Shown: positions 1 to 4,286 of the stretch, piece after piece
Position numbering within the stretch: the stretch's first letter is position 1
Layout: every line of letters starts with the position of its first letter
Source: Verrucomicrobiales bacterium
GTDB taxonomy: Bacteria; Verrucomicrobiota; Verrucomicrobiia; Limisphaerales; UBA11358
Length of the DNA: 64,000 nucleotides
Direction: 5' to 3'
Assembly: GCA_028712475.1 (NCBI GenBank)
Contig: JAQTQB010000002.1
Span: 248,001 to 312,000, forward strand
Notes under the pieces: generated by a model
The model's input: the letters and a program-made list of their open reading frames with translations, nothing else
The model's database searches: none
Told to the model about the DNA's origin: nothing
Made by a program: the position numbers and the translations under genes

Positions 1-93
1 ACGCGAAGAAAGCGCAAGTGACCTTGCCGCCATTGGAAGATTATGAGAAATGCGGACGAATGCCCCAGCGATGATCCCGGATGTCTGCCGGAA

Positions 94-441
94 CTAGCCG
101 GTCATCGGCACGGACAAATTCAACTCGGAGGAAAGACCGTTCGTTGCGACCAGCGGCGAACGGCCTTTATTGCTGGTGTTCTTTTTGTGCCAGTGCTGGT
201 AGATGGTGGTGGAAACGCGCACCAGCCAGTTGCGGTCTTTGCTGAGTTCCAGCACATCAGCGGTGCAGAAAAACTTGATGCTGTTGGCCGCAGGATTGCC
301 GAGCGGCTTGAGCAGCTTGGCCGCGACCAGCACCGGCACATCATGCACCTGACAATTCAACACCCAAGCCGACTGCTCCGCCGTAAGGCGGGCGGGCAAC
401 TGCCCCAACAAGGTCAGGAATTGATGTTGATCGTCTCTCAT
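94..441 (-). CDS. small HTH / excisionase-like DNA-binding protein
   Basis: A 115-aa protein. Residues about 15-70 follow the pattern of a winged helix-turn-helix of the excisionase/MerR type: LTAEQSAWVL, then VPVLVAAKLLKPLG, then KFFCTADVLEL. In that pattern a recognition segment is followed by a 'shape of the address to bind' strand and a DVLEL helix. It lies downstream of the HUH initiator gene on the same strand, separated by about 400 bp that contain a large hairpin. Such small HTH proteins commonly control excision or copy number in mobile elements; this role is inferred from context. The C-terminal 45 residues are not recognised. The opposite-strand reading frame over the same region looks like a shadow. 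Confidence 0.6.
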   Translation of the reverse strand: MRDDQHQFLTLLGQLPARLTAEQSAWVLNCQVHDVPVLVAAKLLKPLGNPAANSIKFFCTADVLELSKDRNWLVRVSTTIYQHWHKKNTSNKGRSPLVATNGLSSELNLSVPMTG

Positions 442-838
442 CTAAATCTCGTTTTCAATCGCCAGTGGTTGGCGGCATATCGTCGTTCCATCCGGGCATA
501 GGAATTCTACAAGGAGCCTTGGCCGGCGGTCGGCTGGCGGGCGCTGCGCGCCCGCCAACCGACTCACCGGCCAAGGAATCCATTTAATTTGACACGCGCC
601 ACAATCGCTTTGGCGTTTTATCGGCGGCCTCCATCGGCGGATTTTCGGACTTGCGGTTTGTAACTGTCAGACGCTTTCGCGTGAGTCAGCTTTGTTCCAA
701 CATCGTGGTATTAGCACGCCAAGCCAGAACCCGCCCGCCACTGCCCGCAACCGTCGAGGCTGTCTCATCGTAAAGGCTACCGGGCGCAAAGGACGCACTG
801 GCCGTCAGAATTGCACCTTTCACCACCAGCCCGTTTTT
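442..838. other. non-coding interval of the HUH element
   Basis: About 400 bp with no convincing gene between the HTH gene and the HUH initiator. Its most prominent content is the long hairpin at 517-576; the rest shows no recognised motif. Its place just 3' of the initiator gene makes it a candidate replication-origin or control region, which is an inference from layout only. Confidence 0.5.
517..576. repeat. 60-nt near-perfect hairpin, candidate origin of the HUH element
   Basis: CCTTGGCCGG (517-526) pairs with CCGGCCAAGG (567-576), GTCGG (529-533) with CCGAC (559-563), and GGCGGGCGC (536-544) with GCGCCCGCC (548-556), leaving a 3-nt loop. No T-tract follows on either strand, so a rho-independent terminator is unlikely. 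HUH initiators nick at or beside hairpins, and the initiator gene ends 263 nt away. Origin function is inference. Confidence 0.55.
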
Positions 839-1387
839 TCATGTGTCCCGGCCGCAGCGTCTGTCTCCACTCGAATCAATACCCGCTATCAGGCGGATAA
901 CAGAATCAGACAGCGTCACCGTGTTCGCAAAGCTGTATTTGTTCAGCTCGTATGCATTTGCCCCAAGGCATTTGCAGACGTATTCCGCGCCGGCCAGGGC
1001 GCTGTGATATTGACGAACATCTACCCGCGCCCCACCTGATTGGATCTTCCACAAATGTTCCATCTGATGTTGCAGCGTGTGACAGTTGCGCGTAGCAGTT
1101 CTCCCCACCAGACAGTGGAAGTGGAAACGCCCGTTTTCTTCGCCCACTTCACCACGCAGTGCAATGAGCAGGCGATTATAGGGGACGCCGCAGACTTTGG
1201 CCGTTTCTTGCAACCAGCGCCATGCCATGCCGTATGCGATGTTCGCGCGGGGAACTGTGCCCCTAAAGGTCGGCGTTGCAAAAACGTCCCACTGGATTCT
1301 CGCCAGTGAGAGGCCAAAGTCCGTGGCGGTCTCGGATTTGCGGATCGGATCGCGCCAGTCTCTGTCTATCCGAGGATTTTTAGCCAT
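839..1387 (-). CDS. HUH-superfamily rolling-circle replication initiator (Rep-like)
   Basis: A 182-aa protein with the three hallmarks of single-domain HUH initiators in order. A hydrophobic motif 1 around residues 33-41 reads WDVFATPTF. The metal-binding HUH motif is His89-Phe-His91 in GRFHFHCLVG. A motif with the candidate catalytic tyrosine, Tyr136, reads AGAEYVCKCLG. The family nicks one strand at an origin, forms a 5'-phosphotyrosine link and starts rolling-circle replication or mobilisation. No helicase domain is present and the length fits compact plasmid or ssDNA-phage Reps. Its ATG lies inside the end of the upstream 95-aa gene (8-nt overlap), suggesting translational coupling. Family assignment rests on motifs alone. 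Confidence 0.75.
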   Translation of the reverse strand: MAKNPRIDRDWRDPIRKSETATDFGLSLARIQWDVFATPTFRGTVPRANIAYGMAWRWLQETAKVCGVPYNRLLIALRGEVGEENGRFHFHCLVGRTATRNCHTLQHQMEHLWKIQSGGARVDVRQYHSALAGAEYVCKCLGANAYELNKYSFANTVTLSDSVIRLIAGIDSSGDRRCGRDT

Positions 1388-1667
1388 AAGTTTTTACTTT
1401 TTGGCTGCCGAGCAGCGTTGCCTTGCCGCCGTTCTCTCCGTGGCGGATCTTCGACACGCCCACCTGGATCGTGTTGCCGACCGACTTGCCCCAGACCTTG
1501 GGGCGTTCTTCCTCCTTCGTCCGGTAGTAAAGCATTTCTTCCATGCGATGCTCCGGCGGATTGCTGTTGTCCATGCAGAGCAAATCGTAAGATTCGCCTG
1601 CGGGTTTGCCGTTCTTGGCCGGCCATGTGTTGTGGACCTCCTTGAACACGGTTAATGACATGATCAT
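1380..1667 (-). CDS. small protein coupled to the HUH initiator
   Basis: A 95-aa hypothetical protein immediately upstream of, and overlapping by 8 nt, the HUH initiator gene. The C-terminal half has alternating hydrophobic strands (KVWGKSVGNTIQVGVSKIR, then KATLLGSQK) that could form a small beta-barrel. In filamentous phages and some rolling-circle plasmids a small single-stranded-DNA-binding OB-fold protein is encoded beside the initiator, so that role is possible. No sequence motif proves it. Translation may start at residue 1 or 3 (MIM). No signal peptide or membrane segment is visible. Confidence 0.6.
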   Translation of the reverse strand: MIMSLTVFKEVHNTWPAKNGKPAGESYDLLCMDNSNPPEHRMEEMLYYRTKEEERPKVWGKSVGNTIQVGVSKIRHGENGGKATLLGSQKVKTYG

Positions 1668-1871: not shown

Positions 1872-2594
1872 TTATTTTAGCTTCTTGGGACGTCCTGGCT
1901 TGCGGTAATGAATATCTAATCGCTGGCAGATTTTTTCAGTTCGCTTCAAGTCGCCTATCCGATACGGACCAAATACTTTGACCAGCACTTCATGAAGATG
2001 GTGGACCGAATTCAGCCGATCAATTATCCGCCAATAAACGAGCATGAAATTGTAAATTTCAATCGCCGTATTTCCGAAGCTGCCGAAGCCTGGGCCGGTC
2101 GGTTTTTGAGCGAATGCGCTGGCGTAGGCCAGCAGAAACTCCTTCATGTCATCATAGGGCTGATCCACGCAGGAGCACAACGCCCGCTTCGCCAGCCGCC
2201 GAAGTGCCGGATACCAGTGGTCTGCCAGTTTAATCAAAAACTCTTCGCCTGTTTTGAGTTGCTCCGCCGTTAATTTTGAACCGTCTACTTCTTCCTGCTT
2301 TTGCAACTCCTTTTCAAGCCATTCAATCAACCAGACGCCCAATGCGCATTGGTGCCCGATGATGGCAGCCAATCGTCCGGGTGTCAGTTTGGATTCTTGC
2401 TTGAGCTTGGCGACTGGAAACAGGGTCGCCCCCATCTCGCGTTCCAGATTTTCGACCCATTTCGGGCAGCCTTCGTCAGGAAGAAAATTTTCCACCGGCA
2501 TGGTCTGTTCAAGCTTGATATATTCGTTAGCCAACCGGCGCAACCATTCTTGCCGGCTCTTTGCTGGGTCAATTTGTATTTCTTTTTCGGCCAT
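1872..2594 (-). CDS. hypothetical protein beside the HUH module
   Basis: A 240-aa soluble, largely helical protein that I do not recognise. It has charged N-terminal helices (about residues 10-45) and a hydrophobic helical core (GHQCALGVWLIEWLEKEL). The basic C-terminus, YRKPGRPKKLK, resembles an AT-hook or nuclear-type basic tail that could contact nucleic acid. I chose the ATG at 2592-2594 because the 28 residues preceding it, back to an ATG at 2678, look unstructured; neither start has a clear ribosome-binding site. It is co-oriented with the HUH initiator cluster about 200 bp downstream and may be part of the same element, though the link is only positional. Confidence 0.6.
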   Translation of the reverse strand: MAEKEIQIDPAKSRQEWLRRLANEYIKLEQTMPVENFLPDEGCPKWVENLEREMGATLFPVAKLKQESKLTPGRLAAIIGHQCALGVWLIEWLEKELQKQEEVDGSKLTAEQLKTGEEFLIKLADHWYPALRRLAKRALCSCVDQPYDDMKEFLLAYASAFAQKPTGPGFGSFGNTAIEIYNFMLVYWRIIDRLNSVHHLHEVLVKVFGPYRIGDLKRTEKICQRLDIHYRKPGRPKKLK

Positions 2595-2888
2595 TTGCTG
2601 ATTGCGACTTAAGGTTTTAACACCACCTCTGTTATTTCGTTGCTCACCGGTGTCGTAACTAAACTTTGCAGGATGCATTCAACCAGCCAAGTTTCGCCAC
2701 CGTTTGGAGCGAGCCAGCCTTCGTTCGTAATAGCCGGTGAATCTGATAACTTTCCCGCCGATTGATTTAAGAGGCGGAAACATCAGTAACCGGCGACGTG
2801 TCCGATATAGCCTAATTCTTGACAGCTCGCCAAGGTCAGGAGCAAACCGACGACCAATAGGCGGCACAATGCCCTATTTTTCCTTTCA

Positions 2889-4286
2889 TTATTTCTCCGG
2901 TGGTTTAAATACCGTGAACGGGCGTTGGGGAAGTTTTGGGCTGGCTGAAGCTTTTGAGGGAATTTTGTTCGTTGTCGGCGGTTCCGGCAAGGAGATTGGC
3001 GCATCAATCGGCGGCGGTTTATTCCAATAGGCTTTGTGATCGTAATATAAAGACTGTAATCTGCCTTTATCCAAATCAACTTCGGCCTCTACCTTTGATT
3101 GCAGATCATCCTCGTTCTCTGTGTTCCAAAAAATGAAAAGGCGCGGAATTCCAGGCAAAGCAGGGCGCAAAAAATTCGGCTGAAAATCCATGTGGACGAG
3201 ATTCGTCGGATAATTGAATTTGCTCATGGTGTTGCGCACTAAATCAATCGCTTCCTGTTCCGTAATGTTCTGTTTGCCGACAAATTGCCTAATGAGAATT
3301 GGACGGTTGTCACTATTAAACAGATTATCCGGCGCGTAATAGCCGTTGACCATGCTGTTGCGGTAAATAAAACGCCAGCCGTTCGTCAGTTCAATTTCGC
3401 AATGCGGCCAGCCGCCGTTGTCAGCGAGCGAAAACTTCGCGACATGATTGGTAGTCAACGGGCGGGGAATTGGAAGTGACAGTTTTCTTCCGTATTCGTC
3501 TATTGCCTGAAAAGCAATTGGAATCAGCTTTCGTGCGTATTCAGGATTGGTTAAATACCAGGACGAGGAGCGCGAGGCAGGTGGCGGCACGTTCAGCTTG
3601 GGCGCGGGTCTTTCCAGATGCTTGTTGTTTGAAAAGGAAATCCGCGCCACCCGCTTTGCGTTTGCGTCAACGTCTATACGAACGGACGGGGCAAGCGACT
3701 GTATGGGGCCAAACCACTCGATATGGAAATGAGGAATTGTGTTTGTGCCAATATGCACTGGTTCGGTGACACGCGGCTCCTGTTCGGCAAAAACTTGTTC
3801 CAAGGGGATGCCAAGTTTTTTAATCGTGTCTCTCGCCAGTTGGATGGCCTCGGCTTTTGACATCTTCACTTCGCCGAAAAATTCCGGGATTCTGTCAGGG
3901 TCTTGCATGGTGAAATACTCACGCGGGCCCTGGATGACTCGCATATAGCCGTGGTCGAATTGAAAAAACCAGCCTCCTTTCACGCCGATTTCTGCCTCAA
4001 GATTCCGTTGAGGCAGAATGCTACAATGAAACACATCTTCCGCAGCGACGGGGTGCGGCACAGGTAAATCAAGCCTCTGTGCCACGTCATTCACATACGG
4101 CAAGACCGCCGCGAGCACCGCATTTGAGTAATTGGCCGTGACACGAATTGAATCAAAGGCCGAATAATACTGCCCGAGTTCGAGAGTCATGCCGTTGGCT
4201 TTTGCCGTAAAGGCATATACAACAAGCAAACCAGCGAGACGGACAGTATGCCATTTAAGAAGGTATCTTGTAGCTAAGCGAATCAT
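2889..4286 (-). CDS. secreted protein with an internal duplication, partner of the caspase-like gene
   Basis: A 465-aa protein with an N-terminal signal or anchor segment (LAGLLVVYAFTAKANG). It contains two homologous halves. Residues about 53-80 (LAAVLPYVNDVAQRLDLPVP) align with residues about 250-280 (IPIAFQAIDEYGRKLSLPIP), and both halves continue with WFFQFDHGY / WRFIYRNSM-type strands. They then run into a helix resembling PepSY/YpeB repeats (KAEAIQLARDTIKKLG; EQEAIDLVRNTMSKFN). PepSY-type domains occur in secreted peptidase propeptides and inhibitors. Its start codon overlaps the stop of the upstream caspase-like gene by 4 nt (ATGA), so the two are almost certainly co-expressed. The C-terminal 40 residues are proline-rich. 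Function unknown; a chaperone or inhibitor role is speculation. Confidence 0.7.
   Translation of the reverse strand: MIRLATRYLLKWHTVRLAGLLVVYAFTAKANGMTLELGQYYSAFDSIRVTANYSNAVLAAVLPYVNDVAQRLDLPVPHPVAAEDVFHCSILPQRNLEAEIGVKGGWFFQFDHGYMRVIQGPREYFTMQDPDRIPEFFGEVKMSKAEAIQLARDTIKKLGIPLEQVFAEQEPRVTEPVHIGTNTIPHFHIEWFGPIQSLAPSVRIDVDANAKRVARISFSNNKHLERPAPKLNVPPPASRSSSWYLTNPEYARKLIPIAFQAIDEYGRKLSLPIPRPLTTNHVAKFSLADNGGWPHCEIELTNGWRFIYRNSMVNGYYAPDNLFNSDNRPILIRQFVGKQNITEQEAIDLVRNTMSKFNYPTNLVHMDFQPNFLRPALPGIPRLFIFWNTENEDDLQSKVEAEVDLDKGRLQSLYYDHKAYWNKPPPIDAPISLPEPPTTNKIPSKASASPKLPQRPFTVFKPPEK

Follow-up and report, generated by a model that had tools for sequence, protein, structure and literature searches.

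An integrated element without coat genes, probably derived from Verrucomicrobial inoviruses

Known filamentous-phage satellites and the layout of the locus

Judging by the title of Schmid et al. 2024 (doi 10.1128/aem.00246-24, cited in PMC11389934), an autonomous plasmid reportedly acts as an inovirus satellite; the element described here differs from such a plasmid in that it carries an integrase and was found integrated only. A second system for comparison is RS1 of CTXphi, a filamentous satellite without structural genes that uses the morphogenesis genes of CTXphi for the production of particles (PMC7326730). As in RS1, the genes of our element are chromosomal and serve filamentous-phage replication, integration and regulation, structural genes being absent (PMC7326730). 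Unlike RS1, it has its own tyrosine recombinase, a G2P/VP4-like Rep of 182 aa, an OB-like protein (p95) and an HTH protein; some of its relatives carry extra genes, and the use of a helper is something that we infer here. The inovirus survey of Roux et al. 2019 took pI as universal marker, and its main text names no Verrucomicrobia (PMC6813254). The inoviruses described there have short coat-like ORFs with a single TM, the Zot (pI) gene, genes for replication and, in some cases, integrases, a description that fits four genomes discussed below (G161, G373, G447 and G145), whereas our element is devoid of pI (PMC6813254). Since the survey rested on pI, it could not have listed coat-less elements of this type (PMC6813254); more generally, coat-less inovirus relatives are invisible to surveys keyed to Zot/pI.

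The window, by which we mean the whole stretch of 64,000 nucleotides that was analysed, begins inside such an element. We consider it likely that what lies here is an element of some 4 kb, integrated and coat-less, that derives from Verrucomicrobial inoviruses, replicates by the rolling-circle mechanism and is probably a satellite of a helper filamentous phage. An HTH-like gene, a hairpin, an HUH initiator and a coupled 95-aa protein had been placed on one strand by an earlier note, and all four were confirmed on the minus strand where that note had put them (Table 1). Read along this strand, the order is p268, p95, Rep, the origin (hairpin plus motif) and HTH, followed by a convergent integrase gene, the element extending past both of the ends given earlier, with p268 on one side and the integrase on the other. 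The same note had seen neither a coat nor an integrase gene. Inspection of the ORFs between p268 and the integrase revealed no short single-TM coat proteins, and Zot is likewise absent from the window element. The integrase, however, is present, and was missed because the window edge cuts the gene: window 1-71 codes for its last 23 residues, and the remainder lies outside the window. The integrated nature of the element, which the note had proposed, is supported.

The right-hand limit of the element, read from where homology stops, is near C17:246,855 (C17 being the contig of the window), and the left limit may fall at about window 2680-2890. Among copies, right-hand homology stops at similar places, often inside a repeat. 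No convincing attachment-site direct repeats were found flanking the element, and none at all on its left side, so that its ends are approximate. All its parts would presumably move as one unit.

Table 1. Features of the element in window coordinates
Feature	Position	Strand	Remarks
Integrase, 3' end (last 23 residues and stop)	1..74	+	Phage_integrase match; convergent with HTH gene
HTH-like protein, 115 aa, putative excisionase/regulator	94..441	-	Paired with integrase
Origin motif CTTGTAGAATTCCTATGCCCGGAT, directly 3' of hairpin; candidate nick site between CTTG and TAGA	490..513	-	
Hairpin, 60 nt, 28 base pairs, loop GCA	517..576	-	Folding
Smaller stem-loop AAAACGCC...GGCGCGTGTCAAA, upstream of main hairpin	591..622	-	Apparently conserved, as seen in the sequences
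Rep, 182-aa HUH (Y1) rolling-circle initiator; His89-Phe-His91, Tyr136, Lys139	839..1387	-	
p95, 95-aa OB-like, putative ssDNA-binding protein; overlaps Rep start	1380..1667	-	AF2, Foldseek
p268, basic GRPKK C-terminus; upstream gene	1872..2678	-	Common to several relatives

The replication proteins and the origin hairpin

The reading of Rep as a rolling-circle HUH initiator is supported by the conservation of its motif residues. In 11 Reps that are 48-91% identical to the window Rep, H91, Y136 and K139 never vary and H89 hardly does; in a set of 11 divergent Reps (26-75% identical to the first row of their alignment) the two H, the Y and the K are all invariant. The Pfam family REP_ORF2-G2P is matched by the window Rep at 1.9e-4 with a score of 22.1 bits, below the curated cut-off of 27.8; the Rep of G161 reaches 26.3 bits, and 10 of the 11 divergent members match at E <= 1. 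The AlphaFold check that the earlier note had proposed is compatible with an HUH-like topology as far as the order of elements and the structural neighbours are concerned, in a model that is itself weak (AF2, pLDDT 58): a Foldseek search with this model gave as best match in BFVD a microviral replication initiator (8.1e-6), and its weak neighbours in the PDB, none below 1e-3, include AAV Rep and a vientovirus Rep. With the microviral/Ff-type initiators (REP_ORF2-G2P) the protein shares the HUH motif and one catalytic Tyr, and it is linked to them by a weak match to the family and by its neighbours in fold; it differs from them in being short and in falling below the Pfam curated cut-off. Rep found no sequence relatives in the phage and plasmid collections searched, nor did scans of viral contigs with Rep, p95, the divergent Reps and two origin patterns return any match.

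Homologues of p95 lie directly 5' of Rep in most copies. Its AF2 model (pLDDT 84) has five strands and a helix, with an OB-like barrel, and weak Foldseek matches (best E 0.014) include PriB, the Ff gene V protein and SSBs. The C-terminus of the window p95 reads GSQKVKTYG where close relatives have GSIITEAKK (window 1380-1410); a frameshift is probably responsible, and the window copy may therefore be slightly damaged. The upstream protein p268 is 64% identical in G017, and its counterpart in the full inovirus G161 is p260; since p268, p260 (G161) and p277 (G119) went into the p268 profile, these three match it by construction.

Folded as ssDNA, window 470-640 attains -48.7 kcal/mol, as compared to -33.2 +/- 3.1 for shuffled sequences (z -4.95), with 0 of 200 shuffles as good. 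Across the class, the Rep-p95 pair recurs with a GC hairpin and a conserved CTTG(A/T)AGA...TATGCCC motif behind it. Of 41 segments, 30 have hairpin and motif no more than 900 bp 3' of Rep, as compared to 5/41 in reversed, 2/41 in opposite-strand and 2/41 in upstream controls, a count to be taken as descriptive and not as an independent test since the motif was defined from some of the same loci. Homologues do recur as a set of genes together with hairpin and motif, which the earlier note had proposed to look for, and are thus not always isolated genes. The stem varies in sequence (26 distinct inner arms out of 30) while pairing is retained, and swapping arms between copies gives 63% pairing; both figures are approximate, the stems of G138, G019 and G158 not being the hairpin adjacent to the motif. 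Among copies with unrelated 3' flanks, the conserved DNA begins a short way upstream of p95 and stops immediately beyond the hairpin, terminating in CTTGTAGAATTCCTATGCCC (window ~494-513). Rfam returned no relevant family for the loci with the origin region. The hairpin-motif combination offers a simple DNA signature for finding more coat-less elements, and the small size of the Rep-origin pair would allow nicking to be assayed directly.

Relatives with and without structural genes

Within the order, a profile of Rep matches 37 of 320 genomes, which belong to 23 of 118 genera and hold one or two copies each, some of them broken; further genomes of the class are matched as well. Four genomes hold the same Rep family within full or near-complete inovirus gene sets. 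G161 has the order p268, p95, Rep, origin, a coat-like ORF of 67 aa, a secreted protein of 582 aa, Zot (9.9e-11), HTH and the remnant of an integrase; in G373, p95, Rep and the origin are followed by structural ORFs and Zot (6.4e-19); G447 combines Rep with a Gp8-like coat (5.4e-4), Zot (4.9e-13) and a secretin (2.8e-36), the only secretin in the four sets; and G145 has p95, Rep and Zot (9.2e-5). The hairpin and CTTG(A/T)AGA motif are present in G161 and G373, a degenerate motif occurs in G145, and the origin motif was not found in G447. As this Rep also sits within full sets of inovirus genes, we take the Rep module of the window to be the one by which Verrucomicrobial filamentous phages replicate. 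The resemblance to filamentous phages noticed earlier is thereby substantiated, and the suggestion of an undescribed class of element gives way to another picture: with four near-complete relatives at hand, the locus corresponds to that half of a Verrucomicrobial inovirus which serves replication and integration. The four full phages occupy four separate positions in the Rep tree, with G373 grouping with the window clade (support 100/98), and no fewer than 6 label changes are needed for the coat-less type; as many forks of this tree are open and its branches long, only its starred groupings should be used.

Besides the window copy, at least eight relatives are without coat and Zot genes. The coat-less order p95-Rep-origin-HTH-integrase was seen in the genome of the window (G000) and in G017, G047, G035, G046, G042, G132, G156 and G119. 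The flanks of eight loci with both modules have no homology save a 39-bp repeat, and their insertion sites are therefore unrelated. Circular contigs with the gene set, which the earlier note had envisaged, were not found, there being no terminal overlaps in the 15 small contigs or loci tested.

HTH and integrase make up a second, separable module, which adjoins the Rep module in about ten loci. The integrase (346 aa, G000:C17:247034-248074) matches Pfam Phage_integrase over the cut-off (2.6e-8) and is kept at the same place in 8 loci. When it was aligned with its homologues from L113-L117, L019 and L022, the position of the canonical Arg I, as judged by eye from the alignment, read Ala in 8/8 integrases (GGAQSD/GAAQSD); HxxR and the GH...Y region are retained in intact copies. 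The HTH protein has no family match in Pfam. It occurs in 40 of the 49 genomes of the family, at 0-12 copies per genome, and many of the copies retrieved form a pair with the integrase. Its inclusion in the smallest conserved unit was considered and rejected, as L005, L009, L010 and L021 carry the Rep element without HTH. In three genomes further genes separate HTH from the integrase: two small ORFs in G017 (L113), an ORC-CDC6-like ATPase in G023 (L159) and membrane-type ORFs in G162 (L134). The HTH-integrase pair also ends tailed-phage-like gene sets (L120-L122) and adjoins pilin/sigma-factor-like genes (L123, L124, L127), the phage and pilin labels coming from inspection of ORFs; such placements would suit an integration module that can be exchanged. 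Homology at the right ends of these modules stops in CACAGATGGACACGGAT-type repeats, often with an inverted copy nearby (for example at L022:7617 and, in rep-strand orientation, at L123:7746 and L127:11759), and it is possible that such repeats are an insertion target. Upstream of one HTH copy (L096 / L118, G006:C136) there is a fragment with a YCAKYCTK motif, as in other phage initiators, possibly a second Rep type linked to HTH.

Proposed cycle and alternative readings

One can picture a cycle in which the tyrosine recombinase would insert and excise the element, with the HTH protein probably acting as directionality factor. Rep would nick one strand beside the hairpin via Tyr136, presumably between CTTG and TAGA, and so start rolling-circle replication, the displaced strand being coated by p95 much as gene V protein would do in Ff phages. 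The resulting ssDNA circle might then return to duplex and reintegrate or, alternatively, be packaged for export by a filamentous phage infecting the same cell, in which case the helper would supply coat, Zot and secretin. Integration by the recombinase, nicking by Rep, coating by p95 and rolling-circle copying are steps that we infer from the protein families; excision would be expected as well, and the least secure part of the scheme is helper packaging. The genome of the window itself has no match to Zot at E <= 0.001, and among 11 genomes with related elements that were searched, a strong Zot was found in G042 only. We tentatively put forward the wider idea that these are widespread filamentous-phage satellites of Verrucomicrobiota, with their own integrase, an inovirus replication module plus hairpin origin and a cargo slot between HTH and integrase, which are moved between cells by helper inoviruses. 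The retained replication module and origin, the own integrase, the extra genes of some copies and the signs of purifying selection suggest that there may be more filamentous-phage satellites than the few on record.

Selection was gauged by simple Nei-Gojobori estimates on a set that includes G073, a Rep-p95-origin copy without HTH. Within clades of coat-less copies, dN/dS ranges over 0.006-0.15 for p95 and 0.17-0.39 for Rep, and pairs with usable dS give 0.16-0.43 for HTH and 0.14-0.40 for the integrase; between clades, p95 values go up to 0.77, at near-saturated sites. All four tested genes of the coat-less copies thus appear to be under purifying selection. While dN/dS alone does not separate vertical retention from mobility, its low values argue against long-inert remnants, and we consider it rather unlikely that the locus is a decaying inovirus prophage that is minus its structural genes and now inert. 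Such decay would agree with the obvious damage, by truncation or frameshift, in several relatives (G013, the Rep of G132, the integrase of G156, and the fragments L017 and L018), with the 6 or more label changes on the Rep tree, by which structural genes were seemingly lost repeatedly, and with the lack of a helper in most genomes. It is hard to reconcile with Rep, p95, HTH and integrase genes that are mostly intact and seem to be kept by purifying selection at dS about 0.3-1, with the retention of the origin architecture and with the same compact arrangement at unrelated loci. Nor was any structural gene detected beside the 12 Reps of the window clade and its sister clade, some of whose contigs end close by.

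It is also worth asking whether an integrative rolling-circle plasmid might have exchanged its module with inoviruses and be spreading without any phage. The element looks complete for replication and integration, some copies carry extra genes, and here too the scarcity of helpers would cause no difficulty. However, there is no transfer gene among the ORFs, the plasmid collection holds no relative, and both gene order and cis region match those of inovirus G161, and we hold the plasmid reading to be improbable. A rolling-circle transposon of the IS91/ISCR or Helitron type, with the hairpin-motif as its origin end, came under consideration as the conserved DNA of copies that differ in their 3' flanks stops just past the hairpin; the motif at window 490-513 also recalls what we take to be the published origin sequence of the IS91/ISCR family. 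This idea was dropped when full inoviruses with the same module appeared, and we now regard it as highly improbable: neither the window Rep nor the 11 divergent members have a Pfam match to IS91-type transposases, REP_ORF2-G2P being the only family matched, and the copies show no conserved left end and are low in number. The reading that we prefer remains that of an inovirus-derived, probable satellite element. Points that count against it are the scarcity of Zot in the genomes searched, the failure to find circular contigs or flanking direct repeats, the damage in some relatives, HTH-integrase pairs beside unrelated genes, integrases without the canonical Arg I and the low confidence of the Rep model.

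Two minor observations concern the origin. Motifs of the origin type without an intact adjacent Rep are found at L025 (G006:C49), L038 (G031:C105) and L103/L119 (G001:C272), and appear to be remnants or non-autonomous copies. At L211 (G261:C341), the Rep origin is followed closely on its 3' side by a GmrSD-type restriction gene (PADLOC HEC-06, 8e-151) of opposite orientation.
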